The position numbers were made by a program, and so were the translations under genes. From Gemmatimonadaceae bacterium (GTDB lineage: Bacteria; Gemmatimonadota; Gemmatimonadetes; Gemmatimonadales; Gemmatimonadaceae): a stretch of 64,000 nt of DNA. Shown one piece after another: positions 19,534 through 38,345 of the stretch. Location of the stretch: contig DASXKV010000044.1 in NCBI GenBank assembly GCA_036496605.1, positions 1 to 64,000 of the forward strand. Reading direction: 5' to 3'. A model generated the notes under the pieces. That model was not told the DNA's origin. It worked only from the letters and a program-made list of their open reading frames with translations, and ran no database searches. How positions within the stretch are numbered: position 1 is the first letter of the stretch; every line of letters begins with the position of its first letter.

Positions 19534-19571
19534 GAGGCCGCGGTGATCTTCGCCGCGGCCTCTTGTCTTGT
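19534..19571 (+). terminator. Rho-independent terminator
   Basis: GAGGCCGCGG (19534-19543) pairs perfectly with CCGCGGCCTC (19553-19562) around a 9-base loop and is followed by TTGTCTT. It terminates the transcript of the small membrane protein. Because it reaches the TTG at 19568, the alpha-mannosidase gene more likely starts at GTG 19592. Confidence 0.8.
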
Positions 19572-19591
19572 GCGCCTCTGACCTCCGCCGC

Positions 19592-22222
19592 GTGTTCACT
19601 GCTCACGTCGTCGCTCATACACACTGGGACCGCGAGTGGTATCACCCATTCGTGCGTTTTCGTCAACGACTCGTTGCCCTGGTTGACGATTTGTTAGACG
19701 ACCCACCTGGGCCTGATGAGAGTTTTCTGCTCGACGGGCAGGCCATCGTGGTCGAGGACTATCTCGACGTGCGCCCGGAGCGCGCCGCGGAGCTGGCGGC
19801 CTTGCTGCAGCGCGGCCGCCTCGAGGCCGGACCCTGGTATGTCCTCGCCGACGAGCTGATTCCCTCCGGCGAAGCGCTCGTTCGCAATCTCCTCCTCGGC
19901 CGGCGAGTGCTGCGTCGTCTTCGGGCGTCCCCACCGGCAGTGCTCTATTGTCCCGACTCCTTCGGTCACCCCGCGGCGCTTCCGCTCATCGCGTGTGGGT
20001 TTGGACTGCCGCTCGTCATCCTGTGGCGGGGCTACGGCGGCCGCCGCTGGCCGTCGGGCGACGCGGCGCTCTGGTCGGCTCCGGACGGTCAGCGCGTCCT
20101 GCTCTATCATCTCCCGCCTAACGGCTACGAGTACGGTTCGAATCTGCCAGCGGACGCGCCCGCGGCACGCGATCGCTGGCAGCGCATGCGCGCCACATTC
20201 CAGCCGCGTGCCGTAACTGACGTCGTGCTCGTGCCTAACGGCGCCGATCACCACGCGCGGCAGCTGAAACAGCGCGAGGCGGTGCGTGCGCTCGCGGGCC
20301 AGGCGCAGGCGACGGGCGACACGCTGCACGCGAGCTCCCTGAACGCGTTCGCCGACGAGATCCTCGCTCGCGCACGAACACGCGACCTCCCCGTCGTCTC
20401 AGGCGAGCTCCGTGACTCCTACGGCTACACGTGGACGCTCCAGGGCACCTTCGCCTCGCGCGCCGCGCAGAAGCGGCACAACGCTCGCGCCGAGCGACTC
20501 CTCCTTCGTGACGCCGAGCCGTGGTCGGCGCTGGCCAGACGACGCGACGGCACGTCGCGTCTGCCCCTTCTCGTTGCGGCCTGGCGGACGCTTCTTCAGT
20601 CGCATCCGCACGACACCCTCTGCGGATGCTCGATCGACCCCGTTGCCTATGCCATGAATCGGCGGCTCGAAGACGCGATGGTGCAGGGCATCGGCATTCG
20701 CGATGACGCTATCGCTCAACTCGTCGGCCACGATCCCGTTACGGCGCGAACGAGGGAGGAGGTATGGACACCGCTCGTCGTCGTGCGGAACCGTGCCGCG
20801 CGACGCCGCGGCGGCGTTGCGATCGTCGAGATCAAGCAGTTCCTCGCCGACATTCCGGTCGGACCGGGCTCCGCGTCGGCCGCCGTGCGCCGCGCTGCTC
20901 GTGTTGAGCACCCGAAACTTGGCGTCTCGCAGCTCCAGCGCCTCGGCCGGCGCATCGGCTACGACCAGCTCGAGTCCCCGCAGCATTACCCCGACAAGGA
21001 TCTCGTCGCGGTCACCCGCGCTGCGGTGTGGGTCGAGGCCGTGCCCGGCTACGGCCTTTCCAGCTACCCGTTAGGCGGGCGCGCGACATCGCGTGGCGCG
21101 GGAACTCGGCCAGTCGTCGTAACCGATACGACAGTCGACAACGGCCTCGTCAGGCTCATGGTGTCGGCCGAAGGACGCGTATCGGTGCAGCACGCCGGGC
21201 GACGGATCGACGATCTGCTCATCATCGAAGACCGGATCGATCGCGGCGATCTCTACACGCCATCGATCCGCGGCACCGCGGCGCTCCCGGAATTCCTGGG
21301 TGTCACGACGACAATGCGAGGCCCGCTGATCGGTGAGTTGCGTCTGCGCTGGCGGCTTCGTGACATCGAAAGCTCTGCGCGCCGGCGGTCCGCAACGACG
21401 CTGGCCGTTCGCCTTTCGTTGACTGCCGAGGCCGCGTTGGTGCGATTGGCCGTCAGCGGAAACAACCATCGCCGAGATCACCGCCTCCGCGTAGGCCTCC
21501 GAACCGATATCTCGGCAGGCGATGTCTGGGCCGACGCTGCATTCGGACCACTGCCGCGTCTACCGCTCGAGGTGCCTGACGAGGATGCCCGCGACGAGAC
21601 CCCGCCAGCCACCGCGCCGCTCCATCGATACGTGTCCCTGTTCAATGCCAGACGCGGTGCCACGCTCTTCAGCGATGGTCTCGCCGAGTACGAGGCGGCG
21701 TCGCGTGGAGAGCTGTTCATCACGCTTCTGCGTGCCGTCGGCGCGCTGTCGCGAAAGAATCTGCCGGAGCGCCCGGGGCATGCGGGCTGGCCCGCACCAA
21801 CGCCAGGGGCCCAGTCGCTTGGCCCTTTCGCCGCGCGCTTCGCGCTCATGCTACATGGCTCGCGTACGCCGGAAACGATCGATGCGATCGAGCATGCGGC
21901 CGATGACGCTCTGCTGCCCCTCGAGGGACGCACGATCCGCTCGCCTCGAAACCTGCCGCTGGCATCGTTAGGTGTCGAGCTCCGGGGCGTCGGTCTCGCC
22001 TTTTCGACGCTCAAGGACTCCGAGGATGGCGAGTGGCTCGTGGCGCGCTGCGTGAACCTTCTCGACACCCCGGTCGACGGCGCATGGCGATTCGGCGTTC
22101 CGATCCGCGAGGCGTACACGGCACGCCTGGACGAAACCATCGGCGAGCCGTTGACGCTAACCGAGAACACCGTGCCGTTCAAAGCCGCGCCGCGCGCCGT
22201 CGTGACGATCCTCGTTCGTTAG
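19592..22222 (+). CDS. Alpha-mannosidase, glycoside hydrolase family 38
   Basis: 876 aa from the GTG at 19592 (a TTG at 19568 in the terminator is the alternative). GH38 retaining mannosidases remove alpha-mannose residues using zinc. The N-terminal VVAHTHWDREWY supplies the zinc His and Asp (residues 9, 11, 13 region). YCPDSFGHPAALP holds the likely nucleophile Asp at about 122, and SHPHDTLCGCSID is the further His-containing block. The C-terminal half is a beta-rich galactose-mutarotase-like domain. No signal peptide, so a cytosolic enzyme acting on imported oligosaccharide is likely. It is followed, convergently and 4 bp away, by ABC permease genes. Confidence 0.88.
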   Translation: MFTAHVVAHTHWDREWYHPFVRFRQRLVALVDDLLDDPPGPDESFLLDGQAIVVEDYLDVRPERAAELAALLQRGRLEAGPWYVLADELIPSGEALVRNLLLGRRVLRRLRASPPAVLYCPDSFGHPAALPLIACGFGLPLVILWRGYGGRRWPSGDAALWSAPDGQRVLLYHLPPNGYEYGSNLPADAPAARDRWQRMRATFQPRAVTDVVLVPNGADHHARQLKQREAVRALAGQAQATGDTLHASSLNAFADEILARARTRDLPVVSGELRDSYGYTWTLQGTFASRAAQKRHNARAERLLLRDAEPWSALARRRDGTSRLPLLVAAWRTLLQSHPHDTLCGCSIDPVAYAMNRRLEDAMVQGIGIRDDAIAQLVGHDPVTARTREEVWTPLVVVRNRAARRRGGVAIVEIKQFLADIPVGPGSASAAVRRAARVEHPKLGVSQLQRLGRRIGYDQLESPQHYPDKDLVAVTRAAVWVEAVPGYGLSSYPLGGRATSRGAGTRPVVVTDTTVDNGLVRLMVSAEGRVSVQHAGRRIDDLLIIEDRIDRGDLYTPSIRGTAALPEFLGVTTTMRGPLIGELRLRWRLRDIESSARRRSATTLAVRLSLTAEAALVRLAVSGNNHRRDHRLRVGLRTDISAGDVWADAAFGPLPRLPLEVPDEDARDETPPATAPLHRYVSLFNARRGATLFSDGLAEYEAASRGELFITLLRAVGALSRKNLPERPGHAGWPAPTPGAQSLGPFAARFALMLHGSRTPETIDAIEHAADDALLPLEGRTIRSPRNLPLASLGVELRGVGLAFSTLKDSEDGEWLVARCVNLLDTPVDGAWRFGVPIREAYTARLDETIGEPLTLTENTVPFKAAPRAVVTILVR

Positions 22223-22226
22223 GCGG

Positions 22227-23111
22227 CTACGCTCGATCGCGTAGCGTGACCCCGGCTTCGCCGGCGAGTCGATCACGCAAGCTGTCACCGAGCAGCGTAC
22301 AGGCGAGCACGGTAACGATCAGGGCGAGCCCGGGCGCGATTGCTACCCAAGGCGCCGCGACGATCAGGTCGCGCCCGCCCGCGATCATGTTCCCCCAGCT
22401 CGGCTGGGGCGGCTGGATGCCCAGTCCAAGGAACGACAAGCCACTCTCGAGCAGGATGGCATTCCCGACGCCGAGCGTCGTGGCGACAATCGCCGGACCT
22501 AGCGCGTTAGGCAGCGCGTGACGCAACAATACGCGCCGCGGCCGCGCGCCGAGCGCCGTCGCCGCGTCGACGTACGGTTGCGCGCGAACGCCCAGCACCT
22601 CCCCGCGCACGAGGCGCGCGACGCCCATCCATCCCGTTGCAATGAGCACGACCACGACCGTCGCGAGCCCCGGCTGCCAGAGCGCCGCGCAGACGAGTAG
22701 CAAAACGAGACGGGGAATCGCGAGCAGGGCGTCCGCAATCGCCATCGACACGCTGTCGGCAGCGCCGCCGCGCCACGCCGCGATCGCGCCGACCAACGTG
22801 CCCACGAGCGCCGCCAACACCGAGCCCACGACGCCCACCGATAGCGACAACCGCCCCGCAAGCATCATCCGCACGAACAGATCCCGGCCGAAGCGATCGG
22901 TGCCGAGCAGGTGAAAGTCGCCACGGGCGTCGCTGGCGAGCGGAGGCACGAGTCGGAGAGACAGTACGTCGCCGATTGACAGAGGATCGCGTCGCGCGGC
23001 CAATGGAACGAAGAGCGCGCCTAACGCGAACAGCACCAGCGTGCCGAGGCACACACGCTCGAGCGTCGTGAGCGCCGGAAAGCGCCAGCTGCGTCCTGGT
23101 TCAGACGGCAC
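22227..23111 (-). CDS. ABC transporter permease, DppC/OppC type
   Basis: 294 aa, GTG start overlapping the DppB-type gene by 11 nt. Has the DppC opening with one helix, then a periplasmic loop containing HLLGTDRFGRDLFVRMMLAGRLSLSVG, five further helices and the EAA coupling loop ATALGARPRRVLLRHALPNALGPAIV. With the adjacent DppB-type subunit it forms the inner-membrane channel for family-5 binding proteins (peptides, some oligosaccharides, nickel). No ATPase subunits lie nearby, so those must be encoded elsewhere or shared. Convergent with the mannosidase gene. Confidence 0.92.
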   Translation of the reverse strand: MPSEPGRSWRFPALTTLERVCLGTLVLFALGALFVPLAARRDPLSIGDVLSLRLVPPLASDARGDFHLLGTDRFGRDLFVRMMLAGRLSLSVGVVGSVLAALVGTLVGAIAAWRGGAADSVSMAIADALLAIPRLVLLLVCAALWQPGLATVVVVLIATGWMGVARLVRGEVLGVRAQPYVDAATALGARPRRVLLRHALPNALGPAIVATTLGVGNAILLESGLSFLGLGIQPPQPSWGNMIAGGRDLIVAAPWVAIAPGLALIVTVLACTLLGDSLRDRLAGEAGVTLRDRA

Positions 23112-24105
23112 GTCGTGGATCGAGCAGAGGGAGCGCGACGTCGGCGGCGAGATTCGCGAAAATCACGAGCGCCGCATACCACACCGTCGCGCCGAGCACC
23201 ACGGGATAATCACGCGCCGCGATCGCTGTGACCATGAGGCGGCCCATTCCCGGCCACGCAAAAACACTCTCGACGAAGATCGAGCCGGCGACCACGCCGG
23301 GTAGCGACAGCGCGAAGAGCACGACCATCGCAGGGAGAATGTTGAAGAGCACGTGCCGGAGATACACTCGCCGTGGTGAGACCCCCTTCGCGCGTGCGGT
23401 ACGTACCCAATCCTGCGCGAGAATGTCGGCGACGCTCGTGCGTGCGTACCGCGCAATGCCCGCGGCACCGATCGCGGCGAGAATCGTTAGGGGAAGAACG
23501 GCGTGGCGGCCGATGTCCAGCAGCCGCGCACCGCCGTGCAACTCCAGGCCCGGAGACTGCATCCCGAACGCGGGGAGGCGCATCGCGGGCGGGAAGCCCC
23601 AGGTCGCCGCGCCATATGTGAACACGGCCACGAGCGCGAGCGCCAACCAATAGCTCGGCGCCGCGTAGACCACGGTTGCCGTTACTGTGAGGACATGATC
23701 AACCGGACGACCACGCCGCGCCGCCTGCAGGATCCCGAGCGGGACGCCGACAATGAACGTGATGAAGAGGGCACTTCCGCCGAGGAAGAGCGAAATCGGC
23801 ATCGCCTCGCGCAACTCGCGGCCAACGGGCCGGCGCGACGAAAAGCTCTCGCCGAGATTCCCGTGCAGCACGCCACTCATCCACCGTGCATATTGAACGA
23901 CGATTGGACGATCGAGGCCGAGCTCAGAGCGCAATCGCGCGGCGTCCTGCGCCGTGGCGGTTGGCGGGACGAGTAGCAGCGCGGGATCGCCAGGTGCGAC
24001 GCGAACCAGCACGAAGGTGATGGTGACGACGAGCCAGAGCAAAACGATCGCGCCGCCGAGCCGGCGGAGGAGTGGAGCGGTGCGCGCAATCCAATCGGGA
24101 ATCAC
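23101..24105 (-). CDS. ABC transporter permease, DppB/OppB type
   Basis: 334 aa, GTG start at 24105. The N-terminal helix followed by VRVAPGDPALLL, the GPxx-like ELGLDRPIVVQYARWMSGVLHGNLGESFSSRRPV segment, and the EAA loop RTARAKGVSPRRVYLRHVLFNILP are classic for DppB. Partner of the DppC-type subunit encoded downstream. Its start codon lies only 3 bases from the start of the divergent binding-protein gene (9 bases if that gene starts at ATG 24115). Any promoter for this pair must therefore lie inside the opposite gene. Confidence 0.92.
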   Translation of the reverse strand: MIPDWIARTAPLLRRLGGAIVLLWLVVTITFVLVRVAPGDPALLLVPPTATAQDAARLRSELGLDRPIVVQYARWMSGVLHGNLGESFSSRRPVGRELREAMPISLFLGGSALFITFIVGVPLGILQAARRGRPVDHVLTVTATVVYAAPSYWLALALVAVFTYGAATWGFPPAMRLPAFGMQSPGLELHGGARLLDIGRHAVLPLTILAAIGAAGIARYARTSVADILAQDWVRTARAKGVSPRRVYLRHVLFNILPAMVVLFALSLPGVVAGSIFVESVFAWPGMGRLMVTAIAARDYPVVLGATVWYAALVIFANLAADVALPLLDPRRAV

Positions 24106-24108
24106 GCG

Positions 24109-25716
24109 TTGAAGATGTCGGAAGCGGCGCGCCGGTCAATTGCGCGAAGCGGCGCGATCGTCGTTCTCTTGGTCACAGGATGCGTTGCGGAGCGGCCGGC
24201 AAATACGGTCGTCTACGCGTCAGGCGCCGACCTCGAGAGCGGCAATCCACTCGTCACCGTGCATCCGCTGTCGCGGCAGGTGCAGCGATACATGCTCTTC
24301 GTGACGCTGGCGCGCTACGACAGCGCGTTGGCGCCGATCCCGTACGGCGCGCGCAGCTGGGAATGGTCGAAGGATCGTCGTGCGTTGACGCTACAACTCG
24401 TCAACGGCCTGCGCTGGCAGGATGGCGTCGTCACGACTTCACGTGACGTGGTCTTCACCGTCGACGCCGCTCGCGATCCGGCCACGGGCTACCCGCGGGC
24501 GGCGGACCTCGCCGCGATCGATTCCGCCGTGGCGCGGGACGATTCCACCGTCACGCTGCACTTCGCGCGCGAGCAGTTCGGCTTCCCGCTCGTGCTCTGT
24601 GAGCTGCCGATCCTTCCCGCGCATCTGCTCGCCCAGGTACCACGTCGTGAAATGCGTCGCGCGCCGTTCAATCTCGCGCCGGTGGGAAACGGTCCCTTCC
24701 GCTTTATCGATCGGCGCGCGGGCGATCATTGGACGTTCGCCCGCAACGCGGATTTTCCCGCCTCGCTCGGCGGTCCGCCGCACGTTGGCGGTGTCGTCAT
24801 CGTCGTCGTCGACGAACCCACGACGAAGTTTGCCGGTTTGGCGAGCGGCGAGCTCGACGTCGCCGGCATCTCGCCCTCGGTGGCACCGCTCGTTAGGCGC
24901 GACCGATCACTTCGCGTTCTCGATTATCCTGTGCTCTTCAGCGTCGGTCTGGTCTTCAACGCCCATCGTCCGCCCTTCGACGACCTCCGCGTCCGACGCG
25001 CCATCGATTTGTCTCTCGACCGCGACCGCATCGTGCGCGCCGCACTCGCCGGCTACGGAACGCCGGCCTCCGGGCCGGTTCCACCGGACAACCCGCTCGC
25101 ACGCCTCGCGGTAGCACAGATCGATATCAAGATGGCCGACTCCCTGCTCGATGCCGCTGGGTGGACGCGTCGCTCGGGCACATGGCGAACGCGCGGTGGA
25201 CGTCCCTTCGTCGTCGATCTTCTCACGGTCGGTAGTGGAGACAATGCCCTCGAGCAGCTCGTGCAAGCCGACCTCGCGGGACGAGGGATTCGCGTCAACA
25301 TCCGCCAGGTGGAGCTCGGGCGATTCCTCGCCGAGGCGCGCGCGCCGGAGAAGCAGTTCGACATGCTCGTTGCTGGTATTCCGGGCGATCTCTCGCTCTC
25401 ATATGTCGGCGCGATGTTCGATTCTCGTCAGGCAGGCGGCGCTCTGGACTATGCGGGCTATCATACCCGCATGCTCGACTCGCTCTTTGCTGCCGTCCGC
25501 GACGCCAGATCGCCAACCGATGCGCGCGCTGCCTGGCTCTCGATCCAGATACAGCTCGCGCGCGACGTGCCCGTCGCGTGGATCTATCACTCGCGCGGCA
25601 TTCAGGGCATCTCGGCGCGGCTTCACGATGTGCGGATGGATCTTCGCGGCGAACTGGCGACCATCGCGAGCTGGAGCATCGGAACGCCCGCTCGAGCTCT
25701 CGCCATCAAGCGATGA
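24109..25716 (+). CDS. ABC transporter substrate-binding lipoprotein, family 5
   Basis: 535 aa from TTG 24109; ATG 24115 is two codons later and equally plausible. The lipoprotein signal ends in LLVTGC, so Cys at about residue 25 is lipidated. The mature part has the SBP_bac_5 pattern: RYDSALAPIPYGARSWEWSKDRRALTLQLVNGLRWQDGVVTTSRDVVFTVDAA, PVGNGPFRFIDRR and FNAHRPPFDDLRVRRAIDLSLDRD. It delivers substrate to the divergently encoded permeases. Because the gene stop overlaps the heparinase-type gene (ATGA), the likely cargo is a glycan fragment rather than a peptide; this is inference. Confidence 0.88.
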   Translation: MKMSEAARRSIARSGAIVVLLVTGCVAERPANTVVYASGADLESGNPLVTVHPLSRQVQRYMLFVTLARYDSALAPIPYGARSWEWSKDRRALTLQLVNGLRWQDGVVTTSRDVVFTVDAARDPATGYPRAADLAAIDSAVARDDSTVTLHFAREQFGFPLVLCELPILPAHLLAQVPRREMRRAPFNLAPVGNGPFRFIDRRAGDHWTFARNADFPASLGGPPHVGGVVIVVVDEPTTKFAGLASGELDVAGISPSVAPLVRRDRSLRVLDYPVLFSVGLVFNAHRPPFDDLRVRRAIDLSLDRDRIVRAALAGYGTPASGPVPPDNPLARLAVAQIDIKMADSLLDAAGWTRRSGTWRTRGGRPFVVDLLTVGSGDNALEQLVQADLAGRGIRVNIRQVELGRFLAEARAPEKQFDMLVAGIPGDLSLSYVGAMFDSRQAGGALDYAGYHTRMLDSLFAAVRDARSPTDARAAWLSIQIQLARDVPVAWIYHSRGIQGISARLHDVRMDLRGELATIASWSIGTPARALAIKR

Positions 25717-28472
25717 CGCTTCTCGTACGCGATGACGCGCTCCGCGCCCGTTCCAGTGTCGCGAGTGCGGAGCTCGCGCCATTGGCAGACGGCTTGTCCG
25801 GGGAGCTCGCGCCCGTCCTCGCGCGAGACCTGTACATCCCTCGCGAGAAGGCGCTGCTCTCACGCGAAGGAGGACGCTGTCCGCGCGATGGTACCACCCT
25901 CGCCTTCGATCCGTTCTCGCCGCATCGTCATCGGTGTCCCCGTTGCGGCGAGATGTACACCGGCGTGCTTCACGATCGGTTCTGGGTTTTCTGGTATCAG
26001 CTCTGGCTCGCCGAGCGTGCCGTGCACGGCGCCGTCCTCGCCAACCTGCGCTGTGAAGAATCAGCTGGTGCGTTCGCCGCGCGTGTCCTCGATCGCTACG
26101 TCGATCAGTATTTGCTCTATCCCAACCGCGACAACGTCCTCGGTCCCACTCGGCCTTTCTTCAGCACGTACCTCGAATCGATTTGGCTGTTGAATCTCTG
26201 CATCGCTACCGACCTTCTCGAGCGGTGGCGTCCAGAGCACGTCTCCCTCGGCGCGCGCGTCCGCGAGCGGATCGTCGAGCCGAGCTCTGCGCTCATCGGC
26301 TCGTACGACGAAGGTGCCTCGAATCGACAAGTATGGAACGATGCCGCGCTCCTCGCGGCGAGTCGGTTGCTCGATCGCTCGGAGCTTGGCGAACGCGCGC
26401 TCTTCGGCCGGAGTGGAATCACCTACCATCTCGCCAATGGGCTGCTTGCCGACGGCACGTGGTACGAAGGGGAGAATTATCACCTCTTTGCACACCGGGG
26501 ACTCTGGTATGGCGTCACGATCGCCGAGACAAACGACGTCGAGCTGCCGGGGGATCTCGTCGGCCGATTTCAAGAGGGCTTTGCGACGCCGTTACTGAGC
26601 GCGCTTCCCGACATGACGCTTCCGTCCAGGCGCGACTCGCAATACGCGATTTCGCTCCGACAACCTCGTTTCGCGGAACTGTGCGAGCTCGGCCTTGCTC
26701 GTGCGGCGGGCGACGGCGACTCGCGGCTGCGCGGCGCGCTCCGCCGGCTGTACATGGATGACGTACCGCGCCGTGAAACGGGTCGCGCGCAGTCGACGGC
26801 TGATGTCGAGCGCAACCTGCCCGGTACCCATCTCACTCGAGCCGATCTCGGTTGGCGTTCACTATTGTTCGCCCGGCCGACGCTGCCACCGCTTGATTCG
26901 TCTTCGTTAGGCAGCGTCCTCCTCGACGCACAGGGCCTGGCGGTCTTTCGACGTGCGAACGAGCGCGCGTACGTGGCGCTCGACTTCGGTGCATCGGGAG
27001 GAGGGCACGGACATCCCGATCGCCTCAACATGCTTCTGTCTGACGGGCCAACGCGATGGCTCGACGACATGGGGACGGGCTCGTACGTCGACCCGTCCCT
27101 GCATTGGTACCGCAGCACCCTCGCGCACAACGCGCCGCTATTCAACGGCTACCAGCAGCAACGTGTGGACGGCGAGCTCCTCGCGTTCGAAGAACAAGGC
27201 GATGCCGGCTGGGTCTGTGCGCGCGCGATCGACTTGTTCCCCGGCGTCGTGGCGATGCGCACGTTGATCGTGGCAGAGCACTACGTTCTCGACGAGTTGG
27301 CGTGGGAAGGTGACAAGCGCGGGGTGATGGATCTCCCGATTCATATCGATGCCGCGGCGGTCGCGATTCGTCGCTCCGCGCTCAACCCGCTTGCACGACT
27401 CTACGAGAATGTCGCGCAACTCGACGATACCCTCGGCGCTCTTGGCGAACAGCGCGGACGCGCGCTCGCTGCCCACACCACCATACGGATCACTGCTCGC
27501 GACGGCTTGCGCCGTCTCGAGGGATTTCTGATGGCGTCACGCCCCTCGATTCTGTACCGCGCCACGGCGCCTGGACCGCCAGGCAAGGGACGGACACCGT
27601 TTCTTCTGATTCGTATCCCGACCATCGGCGAGACCGCTTGGGTGCGTACGGTGTGGAGCTGGTCCGACGCCGTCGAGACGATTCGGCTCGACCCTCGCGG
27701 CGCATTTACGACAGTCGAGCTTCGCGACGGCTCGCACGACCGCTTAAGCCACACGATGGCGGGTTATCGCATCGATCGAATCGCCGAAGGTGCCACTCGC
27801 ACCATTCAACTCGGCGGCCTCGCCAAGGCGGAGCCGGTCAATGGGCAGAGTGAATCCCATTCTGCGCCGCCGATTCTCGCCGAGCTAACTCTTGGGCAAC
27901 CGATGGTGTTCGACCTCGCCGGTGACGACTACCGCCGATCGGAAGAAAGCTGGGACGAATCGGGCCGTCCGAGAGCGCAGGTCCGTCTCGTGTGTGAGCC
28001 TAACGAGTTGATGCTCGACGTTGCCGTGTACAAGACTGGAGAGCTGACCTTCGTTCCTGAGAATGCCGTCAATCCGTACGACAATGAACACCCCGACATC
28101 AACGGCGATGGCATGCAGCTGTATCTAGTAGACCAACGTGGCGCCGGCGGATGGATGTTCGTTCCCGAGCTCGACGCCGCGAAGAAGGGAAGGGTACGCG
28201 CACGAGTTATCGACGGGTCGGATTTACCACGGGTGCAGGCGAGCTGGCATCCCATCGAAGGCGGGTACGCGATTAGCATCCGGTTGCCCTTCCAGTCGGC
28301 GCAGAACCCGCTCTCGGAGATCGCAGTCGGCCTCGTCGTAAACGAGAAACCCGCTGGACGTGAGCGACGCCGCGGCCAGCTGGTCCTCGGCGGCGCGCGT
28401 GGCGAGTTTGTCTACCTCCGCGGTGACCGCGAGGAACACGATCGTCTTCCGCGTTTCCGAATCGTGAAATGA
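25713..28472 (+). CDS. Heparinase II/III family protein with C-terminal CBM9-like domain
   Basis: 919 aa from the ATG at 25713, whose ATGA overlaps the binding-protein stop. A short segment (about 52-80) has CPRDG and CPRCGEMYTG, a partly degenerate zinc-ribbon-like motif with three cysteines and HRH. An alpha-helical toroid region follows, including WYEGENYHLFAHRGLWYG. The heparinase II/III beta domain contains ASGGGHGHPDRLNMLL (catalytic-type His near 432) and SYVDPSLHWYRSTLAHN. The last 190 residues, with NPYDNEHPDINGDGMQLYLVD, look like a CBM9/DOMON carbohydrate-binding fold. No signal peptide, so imported uronic-acid-containing oligosaccharides are a likely substrate. Specificity is not readable. 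Confidence 0.85.
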   Translation: MTLLVRDDALRARSSVASAELAPLADGLSGELAPVLARDLYIPREKALLSREGGRCPRDGTTLAFDPFSPHRHRCPRCGEMYTGVLHDRFWVFWYQLWLAERAVHGAVLANLRCEESAGAFAARVLDRYVDQYLLYPNRDNVLGPTRPFFSTYLESIWLLNLCIATDLLERWRPEHVSLGARVRERIVEPSSALIGSYDEGASNRQVWNDAALLAASRLLDRSELGERALFGRSGITYHLANGLLADGTWYEGENYHLFAHRGLWYGVTIAETNDVELPGDLVGRFQEGFATPLLSALPDMTLPSRRDSQYAISLRQPRFAELCELGLARAAGDGDSRLRGALRRLYMDDVPRRETGRAQSTADVERNLPGTHLTRADLGWRSLLFARPTLPPLDSSSLGSVLLDAQGLAVFRRANERAYVALDFGASGGGHGHPDRLNMLLSDGPTRWLDDMGTGSYVDPSLHWYRSTLAHNAPLFNGYQQQRVDGELLAFEEQGDAGWVCARAIDLFPGVVAMRTLIVAEHYVLDELAWEGDKRGVMDLPIHIDAAAVAIRRSALNPLARLYENVAQLDDTLGALGEQRGRALAAHTTIRITARDGLRRLEGFLMASRPSILYRATAPGPPGKGRTPFLLIRIPTIGETAWVRTVWSWSDAVETIRLDPRGAFTTVELRDGSHDRLSHTMAGYRIDRIAEGATRTIQLGGLAKAEPVNGQSESHSAPPILAELTLGQPMVFDLAGDDYRRSEESWDESGRPRAQVRLVCEPNELMLDVAVYKTGELTFVPENAVNPYDNEHPDINGDGMQLYLVDQRGAGGWMFVPELDAAKKGRVRARVIDGSDLPRVQASWHPIEGGYAISIRLPFQSAQNPLSEIAVGLVVNEKPAGRERRRGQLVLGGARGEFVYLRGDREEHDRLPRFRIVK

Positions 28473-28529: not shown

Positions 28530-29267
28530 GTGCTTCTCGACGCCGTGGTCGTCGTTCTCTACGAGCCACAAAATCCGATCAACATCGCCGCCACCATTCG
28601 CGCGATGAAGAACATGGGCGTCTCCCGGCTCCGGCTCGTCCGGCCCGTGGAGTACGATCCGTATCGACTCGAAGGCATCGCCCACGCCACAAACGATCTC
28701 ATCGAACGCATCGAGCGCTTCGATTCATTCGACGAAGCGGTCGCCGATTGTGTGCGCATCGTGGGCTTCACGGCGCGGCGACGCTCCGCGAAATGGCGTT
28801 TCATCGATCCGCGCGCGTCCGCCGAGGAGCTGCTCGAATCCGCCGCTGAGGGACCGGTGGCGATGGTCTTTGGTCGTGAGGATAGCGGACTCCCGAACGA
28901 CATTCTCGATCGCATGCACGCGGCGGTGGTCATACCAACCACAGAGCATGCTTCGTTGAATTTGGCGCAAGCGGCGCTCCTCGGTCTCTACGAATTGCAT
29001 CTCGCCGCCGGGGACGCCACGCGCTGGATTGCTCCGGCGAAGAAGCTCGCGCCGCCGCCGACCGCCGAACAGTTCGAGCGCGCCTATGCTGACATCGAGC
29101 GCGGCCTCGCCGCAATCGAATTCTTCAAAACGCGCAACGTCGAGCTGATTATGCGTTCGGTGCGTTCGTTGTTGTATCGCGCCAAGCCGGATGCCCGCGA
29201 GCTTTCGCTCGTGCGCGCGATGAGCATCGAGATCGTGCGCTTTCTCGAGCGCACGGGCCGGACTTGA
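28530..29267 (+). CDS. TrmH/TrmJ-family RNA 2'-O-methyltransferase
   Basis: 245 aa, GTG start at 28530. The SPOUT (knotted) methyltransferase signatures are present: [33 protein letters not shown] at the N-terminus, [15 protein letters not shown] in the middle, and [24 protein letters not shown] at the knot. The group and length resemble TrmJ, which 2'-O-methylates residue 32 of tRNA, but rRNA targets cannot be excluded. It uses S-adenosylmethionine. It is followed 31 bp later by the aminotransferase gene; whether they share a promoter is unclear. Confidence 0.88.
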
Positions 29268-29298: not shown

Positions 29299-30669
29299 AT
29301 GCCATTCCGTCGCTTCTTTGATCGCAGCCAGAAGCGTGAGTCACCTGTCGCCGACGAGACGTCCGTCGAAGAGACTGAGATCTCCGACGAGGACAGCGAG
29401 CCCGTGAACGAAGAAGCGGAGTTCGACGAGAGCGGGGAAGAAGTCGAAGGCGAACCCGAGGGCGCGAGCGACATCAATTGGCTGGAGCGCGCCGTTGCGG
29501 TGCTGCCCACCGGCGCATCCACTGGCAGTAAACGGCTCGAGGCGCTTTACGGCGACGCGTCCGCTGTCGGTCCAACGCACTACGTCCACGCAAGCGGCTG
29601 TCGACTCGTCGATTCATCGGGACAGACGTACATCGATTGCACGATGGCGCTCGGCGCCGTCGCACTCGGCTACGCCGACATGCGCGTTCAGGAAGCGGCG
29701 ATGATGGCTGTTGGCACCGGCAACGTTGCCGGACTGTCCAGCATTCGAGAAGTGGAGATCGCCGAACGCCTGCAGGCGATAATTCCCTGTGCCGAGATGG
29801 TGCAGTTTCTCAAGAGTGGCGCGGAAGGTGTGTCGGCGGCTATTCGCATTGCTCGTACGTACACGGGCCGTGACGTCGTTGTCGGTAGCGGCTACTTCGG
29901 TTGGCACGACTGGTCGAGTGACGCTGCTGGTGTGCCGGCGGCGGTACGCGAGCAGTTTCGCTCGGTACCATTCGACGACATCGCTGCGCTCGAGCGCGCG
30001 GCGCGCGACGCCGGCACTCGGCTCGCCGCCATCGTCATCGAGCCCGTCATCGAGCGCCTGCCTTCGGACGCCTGGATCGCCGCCGCGCGCGAGCTCAGCA
30101 AGTCGTTAGGCGCGGTGCTCGTCTTCGATGAGATGAAGACTGGTTTTCGTCTTCGAACAGGCGGGTATCAGGCTCTGTCGGGAGTCACGCCAGATCTCGC
30201 CGTCTTCGGGAAGGCGCTCGCGAACGGATTTCCACTCGCGGCGGTCGTCGGTCATCGCGATGTCATGGAGGCGGCACGCCGCACCTGGATCTCTTCGACG
30301 CTTGCTGGCGAGAGCGTCGCGCTTGCCGCGGCCGGCGCCGTGCTCGACTGGCATGAGGGTGTCGAGGTGTGCGAGACGCTTGCGTCAACCGGTCATGCGA
30401 TGCGCGAGGCCGTGAGCGCTGCCGTCATCGCCTCGGGGATTGCCGGCGTTTCGGTCGAGGGGCTCGATCCGATGTGGTTGCTGCATTTCGCGGATCGGCA
30501 CCGTGAGACGAGGTTTCTCGAGATCGCTGCCACTCATGGCGTTCTCTTCAAGCGCGGTGCGTACAATTTTGCCGCCATGGCGCACGACGAGGAGACGATT
30601 ACAGAAATCGAATCGGCGGCGAGCGCCGCGTTCGTCGAATTGCTCGAAGAAGAGCAGGGCGAGGCGTGA
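29299..30669 (+). CDS. Class III aminotransferase, glutamate-1-semialdehyde mutase-like
   Basis: 456 aa. Residues 60-456 are a PLP-dependent class III fold: ALGAVALGYAD substrate loop, KSGAEGVSAAIRIARTYTGRD, VLVFDEMKTGFRL with Asp at about 277, and the PLP lysine at about 305 in FGKALANGFPLAAVVG. The first 55 residues are strongly acidic (many Glu and Asp), unusual for the family and probably disordered. True GSAM makes 5-aminolevulinate. Lack of heme-synthesis neighbours and the context suggest a different substrate. The TGA stop overlaps the GTG start of an amidohydrolase, and a second amidohydrolase-like gene is coupled after that. Confidence 0.88.
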   Translation: MPFRRFFDRSQKRESPVADETSVEETEISDEDSEPVNEEAEFDESGEEVEGEPEGASDINWLERAVAVLPTGASTGSKRLEALYGDASAVGPTHYVHASGCRLVDSSGQTYIDCTMALGAVALGYADMRVQEAAMMAVGTGNVAGLSSIREVEIAERLQAIIPCAEMVQFLKSGAEGVSAAIRIARTYTGRDVVVGSGYFGWHDWSSDAAGVPAAVREQFRSVPFDDIAALERAARDAGTRLAAIVIEPVIERLPSDAWIAAARELSKSLGAVLVFDEMKTGFRLRTGGYQALSGVTPDLAVFGKALANGFPLAAVVGHRDVMEAARRTWISSTLAGESVALAAAGAVLDWHEGVEVCETLASTGHAMREAVSAAVIASGIAGVSVEGLDPMWLLHFADRHRETRFLEIAATHGVLFKRGAYNFAAMAHDEETITEIESAASAAFVELLEEEQGEA

Positions 30670-31547
30670 GCGCTCCGTTGGCGGGCACGGCGCCGCTCAT
30701 CGATGCACACGCGCACTTCTATCACGCTGGAGCTGGTCGCAGCGATTGGTCCGACGTCAACGCCGCGCGCCTTCGCGCGGGTGACCGCATCGGAATTACC
30801 TATCACGTTGCGTCGGTGCTCGGCAGCTACGGCTTTTCGTCGCCGACCTATTTTCCTTCGCCGGCGGATGTGAGCGTCGGCAACGACGTCATGCTCGAGA
30901 TTGCGTCTCGTGAGGCGAATCGCGTGCGAATGTACGTCACCGTCAATCCGAACGACACGGATCACGCCGTACGCGAGATCGAGCGTTGCGTCGCGCGTGG
31001 CGCAATCGGCATCAAGCTGCTCGCGAGTCGTCGCGCCGACGACCCCTTGCTCGATCCCATCGCCGAGATTGCCGCTGAGCGCGGCTTGCCCGTGTTGCAT
31101 CACATCTGGCAGCATCGCCGGCGCGAGTGGCCGTCGCAGGAGATCTCCGACGGTGCCGACCTCGCGCGCCTCGCGCTGCGGCACCCGCGCGCCAATTTTA
31201 TCCTCGCGCACATCGGTGGCGGCGGCGACTACGCGCACACATTTCCGGCAATCGTCGAAGTGCCTAACGTCTTTCCCGATCTGTCGGGGAGCGGCGTCGA
31301 CCGCGGGATGCTCGATGATGCCCTGACCGTGCTCGGCGCATCGCGGCTCTTGTGGGGATGCGACCTAACGATGGAGACCGGACTCGCGAAGCTGCGCGCC
31401 CTCGAAGCCATCGGCCTCGGCGACGACGCGCTCGCCGACATTCGGTGGCGGAACGCAGTACGCCTCTTTCCCAGGGGCTCATTTCCACGCGCTGAAACCG
31501 CCATGCCATCGCGCAACGCGCAACGCTCGACACTCAGCGCGAGATGA
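30666..31547 (+). CDS. Amidohydrolase-related protein with intact metal site
   Basis: 293 aa, GTG start in a GTGA overlap with the aminotransferase. It belongs to the amidohydrolase-2 group of TIM-barrel hydrolases or decarboxylases. Metal ligands are all visible: IDAHAHFYH near the N-terminus, VLHHIWQH in the middle, FILAHIGGGG, and the aspartate in LLWGCDLTMETG. It probably hydrolyses or decarboxylates a small organic acid or lactone. The stop overlaps the next gene (ATGA), which encodes a shorter relative lacking these ligands. The two proteins may form a heteromer. Confidence 0.85.
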   Translation: MSAPLAGTAPLIDAHAHFYHAGAGRSDWSDVNAARLRAGDRIGITYHVASVLGSYGFSSPTYFPSPADVSVGNDVMLEIASREANRVRMYVTVNPNDTDHAVREIERCVARGAIGIKLLASRRADDPLLDPIAEIAAERGLPVLHHIWQHRRREWPSQEISDGADLARLALRHPRANFILAHIGGGGDYAHTFPAIVEVPNVFPDLSGSGVDRGMLDDALTVLGASRLLWGCDLTMETGLAKLRALEAIGLGDDALADIRWRNAVRLFPRGSFPRAETAMPSRNAQRSTLSAR

Positions 31548-32302
31548 TCGACGTCAACACGTTCGTCGGCAGCTATCCGTTTCGCCACCTCCCACACCCT
31601 GATCCGGCAGCGCTCCTTCGCGTGGTCGAGCGCGAGAAGATCGAGGCGGCGTGGGTCGGCCATCTTCCGTCGGCGTTCTACCGCGATCCCACGCCGGGAA
31701 ATCGCGAGCTGCTTTCGCTCCTTGCGCCCAACAAGCGCGTACTGCAACCCGTGCCGACGGTGCGTCCGGATTGGCCGCGATGGGAGAACGAGCTGCGCAT
31801 TGCGCACGATGCTGGCGCACCCGCAGTGCGCGCGTATCCGCCGCAGTGGGGACTCGGACCGAACGATGCCTCGATGCGCGAGCTTGCAATCGCGACGGGT
31901 GAGCTCGGCATGTCGCTGGTACTCACGGTTCGCTTCGAAGATCTCCGTCAGCGCAACGCTCTCGACGTCGCCGGGGATCTCAGCGCCGCGGCGATACGTG
32001 CGCTCGCACGCGCGGGCGAACGCGTACGACTCGTGATCACGGCGGCGGGACGCGACATGATTGAGGAAGTGCATTGGGGCCTCACGCCGCACGAGCAGGA
32101 GCGCGTGCTGTGGGACATCTCGTGGATCTGGGGCCCGCCCGAGGATCAACTGGCGAAGCTGTTCCGTTCTGTTGGCTCACGCCGCTTTGTCTTCGGCACG
32201 CAGTGGCCGCTTCGCCTCGTGCAGAATCCGCGCGCGAATCTCGATCTGTTGCCCGACGATGTACGTGACATGCAGCTCGGACGCGTCGAGCGCGGAGCCT
32301 GA
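31544..32302 (+). CDS. Amidohydrolase-fold protein lacking metal ligands
   Basis: 252 aa, ATG overlapping the previous stop. Alignable by eye with amidohydrolase-2 proteins: MIDVNTFVGSYPFRHLP replaces IDxHxHxG, APAVRAYPPQWGL follows the usual V.GVK..P pattern, LVLTVRFED sits where a histidine strand is expected, and FGTQWPL replaces the GTDWP metal aspartate motif. The HxH pair and the terminal Asp are thus lost, so catalysis of the normal type is unlikely. It may be a regulatory or structural partner of the intact enzyme encoded immediately upstream. Confidence 0.75.
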   Translation: MIDVNTFVGSYPFRHLPHPDPAALLRVVEREKIEAAWVGHLPSAFYRDPTPGNRELLSLLAPNKRVLQPVPTVRPDWPRWENELRIAHDAGAPAVRAYPPQWGLGPNDASMRELAIATGELGMSLVLTVRFEDLRQRNALDVAGDLSAAAIRALARAGERVRLVITAAGRDMIEEVHWGLTPHEQERVLWDISWIWGPPEDQLAKLFRSVGSRRFVFGTQWPLRLVQNPRANLDLLPDDVRDMQLGRVERGA

Positions 32303-32474: not shown

Positions 32475-33227
32475 ATGACGAAGCGAAGGAAGTGGACCGC
32501 GATTCCCGGGCTCATCGCCCTCGCCACCGCTGCAGTTGTTCTCTCCGCGTACAGCGGTGCCTCTTCATCGCAAGGCAGTCAGCCGCAACAGCCGATCAAC
32601 TTCCCGCACACCGTGCACGTGCAGAAGCTCGGCATGAATTGCCTCTACTGCCACTACACGGCGAACAAATCTCCTGATCCCGGACTGCCCGCCGTCAGCA
32701 CGTGCATGGGCTGTCACCTGATCATCGGCGCGCAGCGACCCGCGATCGCCGGCGTTCACCCGGCGTACAAGAGCACCGAGATCGAGAAGCTCGTGAACTA
32801 CTACAAGGGTGGTGCAGGCGTACCGATCCCGTGGAAGCGCATCCACAAGGTGCCCGAGTACGTGCACTTCCCGCACATGCGTCACGTCAACGCCGGCGTC
32901 ACCTGCCAGACCTGTCATGGCCAGATCCAGGGCATGACGCGAGTCTTTCAGTACTCCTCCCTCAACATGGGATGGTGCGTGAGCTGTCACGTGAACGGCT
33001 ACTCGCCAGAGGAAGGCCGCGTTGCGGCCGGGTACGCGCCGGCCGACAGTAACGTCGTGACGCCTGCCGGTGCGCCGCAGCAGCCCGCAACAGCGACGAC
33101 TGCGCCATCAGCAAATGCTCAACAACCGGCGTCCCCGTTCCAAGCCGTCGGTGTGGGACGCCAACCGGCGACGAACGCCGCCGGCCGCAAGATCGCCCGA
33201 TACGATTGCGCGAACTGCCACTACTGA
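32475..33227 (+). CDS. actA: Alternative Complex III pentaheme cytochrome c subunit ActA
   Basis: 250 aa. An N-terminal hydrophobic segment (residues 8-28) anchors or exports it to the periplasmic side. Five CxxCH heme motifs are present: CLYCH (56-60), CMGCH (77-81), CQTCH (144-148), CVSCH (168-172) and CANCH (245-249), the last one residue before the C-terminus after an Ala/Pro/Thr-rich linker. ActA carries electrons from the quinol-oxidising complex. Its TGA overlaps the actB ATG (TGATG). It is the first gene of a complete actABCDEF operon. Confidence 0.95.
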   Translation: MTKRRKWTAIPGLIALATAAVVLSAYSGASSSQGSQPQQPINFPHTVHVQKLGMNCLYCHYTANKSPDPGLPAVSTCMGCHLIIGAQRPAIAGVHPAYKSTEIEKLVNYYKGGAGVPIPWKRIHKVPEYVHFPHMRHVNAGVTCQTCHGQIQGMTRVFQYSSLNMGWCVSCHVNGYSPEEGRVAAGYAPADSNVVTPAGAPQQPATATTAPSANAQQPASPFQAVGVGRQPATNAAGRKIARYDCANCHY

Positions 33228-36200
33228 TGCCGGACGCCGACAACTCCAAAACCGCCGGCGTTCGCCGCCGCGAGTTTCTCAAGGTCCTCGGGGCGAGCGG
33301 GGCCGTCGCCGCTGCCGTCGGCTGCGCCCCAGAAGACGTTGGAAAGCTCATTCCCTATGTCGTCTCGCCTGACGACACCGTTCCGGGCGTCTCGACATAC
33401 TACGCCACGACCTGCCGTGAGTGCTCGGCGGCGTGTGGCGTCATCGCCGAGACGCGTGACGGACGCGCGATCAAGCTCGAGGGGAATCCGGAGCATCCGC
33501 TGAATCGCGGTGGATTGTGCGCACGTGGCCAGGCGGCGCTGCAGGGCCTGTACAATCCGGACCGTTTCCGCGGTCCGATGATCAAGCAGGGGAATACGTG
33601 GAAGCCCGCGCAATGGGAGGATGCCCTCAATCTCGTTTCGCAACACCTAACGAGTGCACGAGGCGCAGCGGCCAATGCCGTCTTCATCAATCAGCACGAG
33701 ACGGGGAGCTTCCCGGCATTTCTCGATCAGTGGTTGGCCGCGTACGGCATGCGGCCGCATCTCAGCATCGACCTCGAGGCTGATCACGCGGCGATAGACG
33801 CGAATCATCGCGCATACAACATCGCCTGGCCGCGACTGAATTTCGCCGACGCGAAGTTCATCCTCTCCATCGGCGCCGACTTTCTCGAGGGCTGGGGTGC
33901 TTCCGTGCCGCAGCAACTCGACTTCGCCGACGCACGCGCGAAGCTCGAGAACGCGCCGCGCTTCGTCTACGTTGGACCCCGCCGCTCGCTCACCGGTCTC
34001 AATGCCGATCAGTGGATTCCGTGCGCACCGGGCGCCGAGCTCGCGATCGTGAACTTCCTCGCCGACCGCGGCGCAGCACCGCCGCAGGATCAGACCGGCG
34101 TCGCTCCCGCGGTTCTCGAACAGCTTCGCACGGAGCTGACGTCGGCCAAGCCGAGCATCGTGCTCTCCGGGGTCACTACCGACAATGCGGGCGACGTCGC
34201 GGCAACCGTCGCCGCGCTCAATCAATCGCTCGGCAATGTCGGGACGACGATTCGCGCGGCCGATCCCATCGTCGCCTTCGATGGGATGGCGACACCCGCC
34301 GAATTGCTCGATGCGGTCGAGCGCATGCGTGCCGGCCAGGTGCCAATCGTCTTCGTTCGTGGCGTGAACCCGGCGCACGGACTTCCAAAGTCGCTCAATT
34401 TCGCGGATGCCTTCGGCAAGGTGCCGTTCAGGGTCAGCTTCTCGAGCTACCCAGACGAAACCACCGAGCTGTGCGACGTCGTGCTCCCGGATTTCCATTC
34501 GCTCGAGTCCTGGGGCGACGCGCAGCCGGTGCGCGCCACGATCGGCCTCCAGCAGCCGACGATGGATCCGGTCTTCGCGAACACCCGGGCGACCGGTGAC
34601 GTGCTCATTGCACTCGCGAAGAAGGATCAGGCGGCGGCGCCTCGCCTAACGATGAAGGACTATCGGTCCTGGTTGTTCGGACGACTTCCCGGCGGCGAGC
34701 AGGCCGTGACGGCCGCACTCACTCGCGGCGTCATGGCTGGCAACCTTGCTCCGCGGCCAGCGGCAGCGACCACCGTGACTCCGCGGCGCGTGCCGACGCT
34801 CTCCACGACCACGGGGGATTATTTCCTCGTCGTGTATCCGTCGCCGGCGCTCGGCCACGGTCGCGGCACGAACAAACCATGGCTCGTCGAGCTTCCTGAC
34901 CCCGTCACGAAGATCACCTGGGGTTCGTGGGTCGAGCTCCATCCGGAGACGGCGGCGCGGCTCGGAATCGACCGCGGCGACATCGTCGAGATCCGCGCTG
35001 GCAGTGGGACCGTGCGGGCGCCGGCCGTGCCATACCTCGGCGTTCGGCCGGATGTCGTCGCGATTGCCACCGGCTACGGTCATCGCGCCGCGACGTCGCT
35101 CCCGATGTACGACAACAAACATCGAAGCGAGAATCCGCTGCAATGGGGCTACGGTCGTTATGCGCGTGACCTTGGCGTCAATGCGCTCGATCTGTTGCCG
35201 GCGGGTACCAACGGTGCCGGCGGCCTGACTCTCACGGCGACGAAAGTCACGATCTCGCGCGTCGGTGATCAGGTGAAACTCGCGAGCACCGAAGGTTCGG
35301 CGCGACAACACGGCCGTGGCATCGCGCAGGCGGTCAACGCCGAGGACCTTGCGCGCGGGATTCGCGAGCCCGGGGAGAAAGAGGAAGCGATCGAGGGCGA
35401 CGCGAGCCACGCATTCCTTCCGGGACTGCGCTCACCGGTCGCCGCCGACGCGCAAGGCATTCTCGGTGCGCCGACGGATCCGAATCAGGGAAAGAACAAG
35501 GGCTTGTACGATCCCACGCACCCGACGCACATGGCGTCGCGTCGTTGGGCGATGACGGTCGATCTCGCGCGGTGCACCGGTTGCTCGGCGTGCGTGACGG
35601 CGTGCTACGCCGAAAACAACATCCCGACGGTCGGTGCGCCCTGGCAGAACGCGACGCTCTTCGCGAGCCCGACTCCTGGATTCAACATTACGCGTGGGCG
35701 CGAGATGGCCTGGATTCGCCTCGAGCGCTACTTCGAGGGCAATCCCGACGGGCGATTTGGCGAGGAGTTCGAGACGCGCTTCGTGCCGATGATGTGTCAG
35801 CATTGTGGTAACGCGCCGTGCGAGCCCGTCTGCCCGGTCTACGCGACGTATCACTCGCCGGACGGGCTGAACGTCCAGGTCTACAATCGCTGCGTCGGCA
35901 CGCGCTATTGCTCGAACAACTGTCCGTACAAGGTTCGATACTTCAACTGGTTTGGTTACGGCGAGCCCGATCGCAAGCAGTTCGCGTTCCCCGAGCCGCT
36001 CAACTGGCAGTTGAATCCGGATGTCACGGTCCGCGGCAAGGGCGTGATGGAGAAGTGCTCGTTCTGCGTGCAGCGCATTCGCGAGGCCGAGAACCGCGCC
36101 GCGCTCGAGCATCGCGAGCTCGTGCCTGACGAGTTCACGACCGCCTGCGCGGCCGCGTGTCCGTCGCGCGCGATCACCTTCGGTGACGCCGCCGATCCGC

Positions 36201-36346
36201 AATGGACGGTGGCACAGCTCGCGCAGGATCGCCGCGCGTACCACGTGTTCGAGGAGCTCAACACCTTCACGGCTGTGGTCTACTTGAAGAAAGTCACTCA
36301 TATCGCGGGGCCGACGGCGCAACCGTCGCCGCCCGCGACGCGCTGA
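33227..36346 (+). CDS. actB: Alternative Complex III iron-sulfur subunit ActB
   Basis: 1039 aa from the ATG at 33227. A twin-arginine-like leader (RRREFLKVLGASG) suggests Tat export. The first about 740 residues form a molybdopterin-oxidoreductase-like domain; an N-terminal C-x2-C-x3-C...C set (CRECSAACG...LCARGQ) is retained. The last about 270 residues are a ferredoxin-like domain with CTGCSACVTACYAENN, CQHCGNAPCEPVCPV, CVGTRYCSNNCPYKVRYF and CSFCVQRI motifs, enough for four clusters. This B1-B2 fusion is the usual ActB form. It passes electrons from quinol toward the hemes. No molybdenum cofactor is expected in ActB. Confidence 0.95.
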   Translation: MPDADNSKTAGVRRREFLKVLGASGAVAAAVGCAPEDVGKLIPYVVSPDDTVPGVSTYYATTCRECSAACGVIAETRDGRAIKLEGNPEHPLNRGGLCARGQAALQGLYNPDRFRGPMIKQGNTWKPAQWEDALNLVSQHLTSARGAAANAVFINQHETGSFPAFLDQWLAAYGMRPHLSIDLEADHAAIDANHRAYNIAWPRLNFADAKFILSIGADFLEGWGASVPQQLDFADARAKLENAPRFVYVGPRRSLTGLNADQWIPCAPGAELAIVNFLADRGAAPPQDQTGVAPAVLEQLRTELTSAKPSIVLSGVTTDNAGDVAATVAALNQSLGNVGTTIRAADPIVAFDGMATPAELLDAVERMRAGQVPIVFVRGVNPAHGLPKSLNFADAFGKVPFRVSFSSYPDETTELCDVVLPDFHSLESWGDAQPVRATIGLQQPTMDPVFANTRATGDVLIALAKKDQAAAPRLTMKDYRSWLFGRLPGGEQAVTAALTRGVMAGNLAPRPAAATTVTPRRVPTLSTTTGDYFLVVYPSPALGHGRGTNKPWLVELPDPVTKITWGSWVELHPETAARLGIDRGDIVEIRAGSGTVRAPAVPYLGVRPDVVAIATGYGHRAATSLPMYDNKHRSENPLQWGYGRYARDLGVNALDLLPAGTNGAGGLTLTATKVTISRVGDQVKLASTEGSARQHGRGIAQAVNAEDLARGIREPGEKEEAIEGDASHAFLPGLRSPVAADAQGILGAPTDPNQGKNKGLYDPTHPTHMASRRWAMTVDLARCTGCSACVTACYAENNIPTVGAPWQNATLFASPTPGFNITRGREMAWIRLERYFEGNPDGRFGEEFETRFVPMMCQHCGNAPCEPVCPVYATYHSPDGLNVQVYNRCVGTRYCSNNCPYKVRYFNWFGYGEPDRKQFAFPEPLNWQLNPDVTVRGKGVMEKCSFCVQRIREAENRAALEHRELVPDEFTTACAAACPSRAITFGDAADPQWTVAQLAQDRRAYHVFEELNTFTAVVYLKKVTHIAGPTAQPSPPATR

Positions 36347-36357
36347 GGAGAATCACA

Positions 36358-37845: not shown

Positions 37846-38345
37846 TGCGAGGCGTACTGGGTGCCTTTCACGAGCTGGACTCGGCGGTGCACGCAATCGA
37901 GGACTTGGGCAAGCACCGATTCAAGGAGATCACTGTTTACACGCCAACGCCGCGCCACGAATTCGAGCACGTGCTCGACAAGGGGCCGAGCGCGGTCCGG
38001 GTGTTCACGCTGATCTTCGGTCTCGCGGGTGTGACGTTCGGCTATTGGATCGCGGTATGGATCTCCGATTACTGGCCAATCGTTGTCGGGGGGAAGGCAA
38101 TTGCCACGTGGGTCCCGTTCACCATTTTCGGTTTCGAGGTGATGGTCCTCATCGGCGGTCTGGCCACAGTCTACGCGATGTTCGGCTTGTCGGGGATGCC
38201 GCGCCTGACGACTACCGTCGGTTACGATCCGCGCTTCAGCGGCGGCGACTTCGGCGTCTGGGTCGAGACCAGCGCCGATCGCGCTGACGAGGCCATGGAC
38301 GTGCTCCGTCGCCATGGTGCGCGGGAGGTGCGGAGTGAGCGATAA
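37845..38345 (+). CDS. actD: Alternative Complex III subunit ActD (DUF3341)
   Basis: 166 aa, ATG sharing a base with the actC stop. It opens with GVLGAFHELDSAVHAIEDLGKHRFKEITVYTPTPRHEFEHVL, the soluble DUF3341 domain. Two transmembrane helices follow, then a short C-terminal soluble segment with PRLTTTVGYDPRF. ActD is a structural subunit without cofactors. The actE gene begins 11 bases before this stop, and GGGAGG inside actD provides its ribosome-binding site. Confidence 0.93.
   Translation: MRGVLGAFHELDSAVHAIEDLGKHRFKEITVYTPTPRHEFEHVLDKGPSAVRVFTLIFGLAGVTFGYWIAVWISDYWPIVVGGKAIATWVPFTIFGFEVMVLIGGLATVYAMFGLSGMPRLTTTVGYDPRFSGGDFGVWVETSADRADEAMDVLRRHGAREVRSER

Follow-up and report, generated by a model that had tools for sequence, protein, structure and literature searches.

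A conserved gene trio of Gemmatimonadota and its fused haloarchaeal counterpart suggest an undescribed two-part enzyme for sugar breakdown

The gene trio described here, together with a fused counterpart in haloarchaea, suggests an undescribed two-part enzyme for sugar breakdown. It lies in a 64,000-nucleotide stretch of the genome of a Gemmatimonadaceae bacterium (the window) and consists of a class III aminotransferase (AT), a metal-bearing amidohydrolase (AH1) and a metal-less paralogue of the latter (AH2) (Table 1). The reading that we consider probable, if some way from certain, is that AH1 and AH2 make up a heteromeric amidohydrolase that works with a sugar-type aminotransferase in the catabolism of glycans or amino sugars. 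The initial annotation of the window had already proposed a heteromer in which one paralogue bears metal and the other does not, and natural fusions of the two proteins and the near-universal adjacency of their genes argue that such a complex would form. That annotation also knew of no described pathway with this combination, and we found none; our literature search for a pseudoenzyme amidohydrolase heterodimer, or for this gene combination in Gemmatimonadota, returned nothing.

Table 1. Features of the trio locus, by position in the window, and of the reverse-order tandems, by locus
Feature	Position	Strand	Basis or remark
GH38 alpha-mannosidase/mannosylglycerate hydrolase-like	19568..22222	+	Associated gene
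Two ABC permeases, Opp type	22227..24105	-	Gene calls; Pfam BPD_transp_1 on family f2 homologue L136
Family 5 (Opp-type) solute-binding protein	24109..25716	+	Associated gene
Heparinase II/III-like protein with CBM9 domain	25713..28472	+	Pfam on L038 homologue; co-occurs with trio
SpoU/TrmJ-like RNA methylase	28530..29267	+	Pfam on L038 homologue
AT, class III (GSA-like) PLP aminotransferase, 456 aa	29299..30669	+	Pfam; catalytic Lys305
Acidic N-terminal leader of AT, ~55 aa, Asp/Glu-rich, start MPFRRFFDR	29299..29463	+	
AH1, PF04909 amidohydrolase, metal site intact	30666..31547	+	GTG start overlaps AT stop
AH2, metal-less PF04909-type paralogue	31544..32302	+	ATG start overlaps AH1 stop
Reverse-order tandems, N-half without HxH, C-half with HxH	L151:3927-5582; L152:5043-6716; L154:4279-5940; L155:304-2022; L160:5450-7075		

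The three reading frames, their coordinates and the two 4-base stop-start overlaps that couple them (GTGA between AT and AH1, ATGA between AH1 and AH2) are exactly as first annotated. Rather than being missing from relatives, which the initial annotation thought would speak against its proposal, the trio is conserved through one bacterial order, and strong AH2 matches are restricted to that order phylum-wide. Among 99 relatives, AH1 and AH2 were both found in 73 and both absent from 23, AH2 never occurred alone, and the match to AH1 was itself partial in the 3 genomes with AH1 only. Gene by gene, AH2 was found in 73, AH1 in 76 and the trio-type AT in 74, most of the exceptions being partial matches in draft genomes, and the phylogenetic profiles of the three genes gave Fisher values of 1e-19 to 1e-20 with the kinship of the genomes ignored. 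Gene order was counted in the best 80 contig loci, all from Gemmatimonadota (one record is titled only "bacterium"), where AH1 and AH2 were adjacent in 77 of the 77 loci holding both, overlapping in 64, and AT adjoined the pair in 67 of 74.

The order of the genes is looser in a few relatives. AT lies 0.3 to 8.7 kb away from AH1-AH2 in part of family f2, AH2 is found 33 kb from AH1 in one genome (G054), and in another (G096) the trio is gone as a block, with only an AT stub left behind the heparinase-like gene. A further genome (G021) has lost AT, and the persistence of AH1-AH2 there means that AT is no strict requirement. In the same genome, a peptidase-like open reading frame (L150:10442-12442) ends in an in-frame apparent AT remnant and overlaps AH1 by 4 bases. 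Three f2 genomes (L032:6772-12065, L031 and L033) have an insertion of apparent PQQ biosynthesis genes that separates AT from AH1.

AH1 matches Amidohydro_2 (PF04909) at 6.5e-25 in Pfam (88.9 bits against a cut-off of 26.4), and the complete set of amidohydrolase metal ligands first read in it is invariant: apart from one gap at H15/H17, none of the 101 aligned relatives lacks H15, H17, H146, H182 or D233. The protein has the fold and the HxH...H...H...D site of ACMSD, gamma-resorcylate decarboxylase, LigW and LigJ (PF04909, COG2159-like), with a top sequence E value of 3e-8 and fold Z scores of 22 to 23; identity to this group is 17 to 24%. Equating AH1 residues with ACMSD ligands by sequence motifs and strand positions, we find that the site most likely follows the mononuclear ACMSD pattern. 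Its last ligand stands in D233-L-T-M/L/I (D233-x-T-M/L/I in all 101 sequences) and not in the D-x-x-H of AibH2-type dinuclear oxygenases. To our knowledge, no metal-less partner accompanies any member of the ACMSD/LigW/LigJ group.

AH2 is recognizable as a relative of AH1 by both fold and profile. It had no match in NCBIfam or in Pfam at an E value of 0.1, PF04909 included, and a sequence search of the PDB gave nothing significant. The structural model predicted for it (pLDDT 90) folds as a PF04909-type barrel, with ACMSD and the dihydroxybenzoate decarboxylases as its nearest neighbors (VIA Z of about 20 against ACMSD and 2,6-dihydroxybenzoate decarboxylase); AibH1H2 and SfbO were also among the fold matches. 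The first Foldseek match of the model was 4i6k, annotated as a pyrone-dicarboxylate hydrolase (E value of 6e-9), a likeness against which its absence from the 50 VIA matches listed does not count. The AH2 and AH1 profiles align along 220 columns (hhalign E value of 1e-5, probability 83%), and the two proteins have common descent and the same PF04909-type barrel.

The metal site of AH2 has been dismantled across the order while other residues have been kept. Among 105 sequences, the first HxH position is N, S, A or T, with H in only 4, the second is F, W, L or Y, and the site of the last Asp is W, Q, M or F. The AH2 of the window itself reads NTF at HxH and has neither His nor Asp at the remaining ligand sites. 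The initial annotation had described the loss of HxH, the middle His and the terminal Asp; HxH and Asp are indeed lost, while the middle His (position 167) is replaced by A or G in most members of family f1 and H in 23 of the 105 sequences, mainly in family f2, and its loss is therefore partly lineage-specific. Calling the paralogue dead, as the same annotation did, was too strong, because the barrel mouth of AH2 bears an invariant set of residues of its own and the protein is under strong purifying selection. E132, D133, R135, D141, R152, E184, D191, W196-G-P-P, P222 and R224 are invariant in the 105 sequences and lie mostly at the mouth, and positions conserved to at least 98% account for 19 of 79 on the C-face of the barrel (24%), compared with 10 of 110 in the helices and 2 of 41 on the N-face (5 to 9%). 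The dN/dS ratio is about 0.06 to 0.13 where estimated, similar to that of AT, which rules out a decaying pseudogene. The order-wide ligand loss, together with the invariant residues that AH2 has of its own, indicates that the metal site was lost before the order radiated and that another essential set of residues was acquired or kept.

The strongest evidence comes from beyond the window. Plasmid protein searches with AH2 and with AH1 matched the same five genes, each on a haloarchaeal plasmid and each encoding a single protein of 558 to 565 residues in which an AH1 domain is followed by an AH2 domain; the distribution of this fusion is given as seen in the plasmid collection. The halves score 104 to 124 bits with AH1 and 98 to 116 bits with AH2, and cross-scores do not exceed ~15 bits, which makes the split between AH1 and AH2 older than the separation of the fused and unfused versions. 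The first half keeps H15, H17, K117, H146, H182 and D233 (three aligned). In the second half, DANAYxG replaces HxH in all five proteins, and VRxxP (three aligned) and LEDxRQxH (exact in three of five) are retained, with strong likeness to AH2 only across the first ~140 AH2 residues. The haloarchaeal protein, annotated as an "amidohydrolase family protein" of ~560 aa (e.g., WP_276256064.1), thus shares with the trio the residues kept and lost and a plasmid-borne aminotransferase of the same subfamily, but it differs in being fused and in its link to sulfatases and PIG-L deacetylases. The class III aminotransferases of the five plasmids, encoded among sugar genes ~1 to 28 kb from the fused gene, are by bit score the top relatives of AT in the plasmid collection. 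They fall within the trio-AT subfamily in the AT tree, apart from HemL, and group nearer to other Gemmatimonadota paralogues (95/94), so that strict orthology with the trio ATs is not established; AT may have been recruited twice. Related PF04909 tandems of ~550 residues in the reverse order, with the metal-less half first, are found in Halomontanus and in a further class of the phylum and look like a second, independent pairing of an active and a metal-less barrel.

The match of AT to Aminotran_3 (PF00202; 1.8e-40 in Pfam) bears out its first reading as a class III aminotransferase, the acidic leader of about 55 residues is likewise as first described, and the PLP lysine, D277 and E278 are kept in 80 to 81 of 81 aligned sequences (K305 in 80). 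GSA aminomutases are its top matches in NCBIfam and the PDB, all far under the cut-offs. We reject an identification as HemL, since AT scores 191 bits against the TIGR00713 model, with a curated cut-off of 527, and the true hemL is a separate gene elsewhere in the source genome that scores 583 bits. The fold, the PLP lysine and motifs are common to AT, GSA aminomutase and the C-6' sugar aminotransferases, but AT falls below the family cut-offs. The insertion that GSA aminomutases carry after the YxGxxD motif, in the gating-loop region, is absent (a ~14-residue gap against 5i92, 6w80 and 3l44), whereas AT resembles the C-6' sugar aminotransferases in this YFGWHDW region and aligns with 7lld without a gap after YFGWHD. 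Paralogues of AT sit in clusters resembling those of nonulosonate synthesis, as named from sequence alone. The best reading of these likenesses is that AT is a sugar-type class III aminotransferase and not a GSA aminomutase. Of 77 distinct ATs, 19 have the acidic leader in its strict form, each starting M[APV][FL]..F. The leader is confined to family f1, being absent from families f2 and f3; it is therefore a lineage ornament outside the core mechanism and not essential to function.

An unusual amino acid or semialdehyde had been suggested as the substrate, but a sugar or amino sugar is likelier, because the neighbors include the heparinase-like gene, GH38, the SBP5-type ABC transporter and a GHMP kinase, with sulfatases and PIG-L deacetylases in haloarchaea, and because relatives of AT are found in nonulosonate-type clusters and among the C-6' sugar aminotransferases. 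The heparinase-like gene and the GHMP kinase co-occur with AH1 across the 99 relatives, and in family f2 the GHMP kinase, a PGI-like isomerase and GH38 share one block. RidA, Gfo/Idh/MocA and DegT enzymes and beta-helix proteins are further neighbors in haloarchaea, joined in Halomontanus by heparinase II/III. In many relatives the RNA methylase gene separates the heparinase-like gene from AT; it has no obvious link to the pathway and is probably a housekeeping passenger.

Other genes near the trio are of a different kind. Directly downstream (positions 32475-40499 of the window) lies an apparent operon for alternative complex III (ActA-F), which is common to several f1 genomes and is an unexpected companion for a sugar pathway. 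Family f2 genomes have a DHDPS-like aldolase, a DHOD-like protein (375 to 390 aa, no Pfam match), an amine oxidase and an OSBS-like enolase beside AH2 (L039:191-4514 and L038:636-2925). We reject the idea that these four belong to the core pathway; the two that were scanned, the DHDPS-like and DHOD-like genes, turn up together in only 20 of the 99 genomes, an identical set for both.

In the mechanism that we propose, the Opp-type ABC transporter would import aminated or acidic sugars, and breakdown would take place inside the cell. AT would replace an amino group of the sugar with a carbonyl, and the product would then be hydrolyzed, hydrated or decarboxylated by AH1 and AH2 acting as one heteromeric amidohydrolase. 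AH1 would carry out the chemistry at an ACMSD-like mononuclear metal site (H15, H17, H146 and D233, with H182), and AH2 would be its obligate partner, an ancient metal-free paralogue. The most likely role of the Arg/Asp/Glu constellation of AH2 is to bind a loop of AH1 or an anionic group on the substrate, by which it would shape or gate the AH1 site.

The role given here to AH2 is where other explanations come closest. As a special case of the heteromer, AH2 could be a purely structural or folding scaffold of AH1 that binds no ligand, which we regard as a possible but doubtful alternative: every metal ligand is lost, and AibH1 of AibH1H2, thought to be structural, is a precedent, but the invariant residues cluster at the barrel mouth and not on the helical outside, even if part of the mouth face could be an interface. 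It is less likely still that AH2 is an independent metal-free enzyme, such as an isomerase or lyase, that takes the next step after AH1, with the fusion being a bifunctional enzyme. The invariant polar pocket at the mouth (E132, D133, R135, R137, D141, D191 and R224) would suit this, and at least one characterized PF04909 enzyme works without a cofactor (PMC10811679), but homologous barrels that are nearly always side by side fit a pairing of subunits equally well or better, and the reversed tandems likewise join a metal-bearing and a metal-less half.

Explanations that change the chemistry fare worse. If AT were a GSA aminomutase or an amino acid transaminase, the trio could be a side branch of tetrapyrrole or amino acid metabolism with no link to sugars; its best database matches point that way, but their low scores, the missing insertion and the separate hemL speak against it, as do the carbohydrate genes that adjoin in both Gemmatimonadota and haloarchaea, and we find this quite improbable. 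We give almost no credence to a dinuclear oxygenase like AibH2 or SfbO. Both AibH1H2 and SfbO resemble AH2 in fold, and AibH1H2 is the only PF04909 heteromer that we found, but AibH2 has D337-x-x-H340 where AH1 has D233-L-T-M/L/I, and inspection of the neighborhoods by eye showed no Rieske or ferredoxin gene beside the trio. This reading is rejected for want of the D-x-x-H for a second metal in AH1.

In conclusion, we favor the heteromeric amidohydrolase with a sugar-type aminotransferase, and the trio probably marks an undescribed catabolic branch by which Gemmatimonadota break down amino sugars or glycans. More speculatively, and with less confidence than in the heteromer itself, the pair may represent a distinct split-active-site class of enzyme in which an aminated sugar acid is bound jointly by a metal-bearing barrel and a metal-free one for an undescribed step after transamination, in Gemmatimonadota and haloarchaea, with the reverse tandems as a second branch. 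Few functions are known for the very large PF04909 family. A wholly metal-free barrel in a pair, conserved order-wide and fused in archaea, is a test case for a barrel turned into a regulatory or substrate-binding subunit.

The closest precedent is AibH1H2, the 2-aminoisobutyrate hydroxylase of Rhodococcus wratislaviensis, in which a catalytic and an auxiliary PF04909 subunit form an alpha2alpha'2 complex (PMC7782822, PMC10401708) and both subunits bind metal (PMC7782822, PMC10401708, PMC12141560). As in the trio, the two PF04909 paralogues are adjacent, there in an amine catabolic operon. The two systems differ in that AibH1 has a metal site and AibH2 has a dinuclear site and a Rieske partner, whereas AH2 is without ligands, AH1 has a site of the mononuclear type and the partner gene encodes an aminotransferase.
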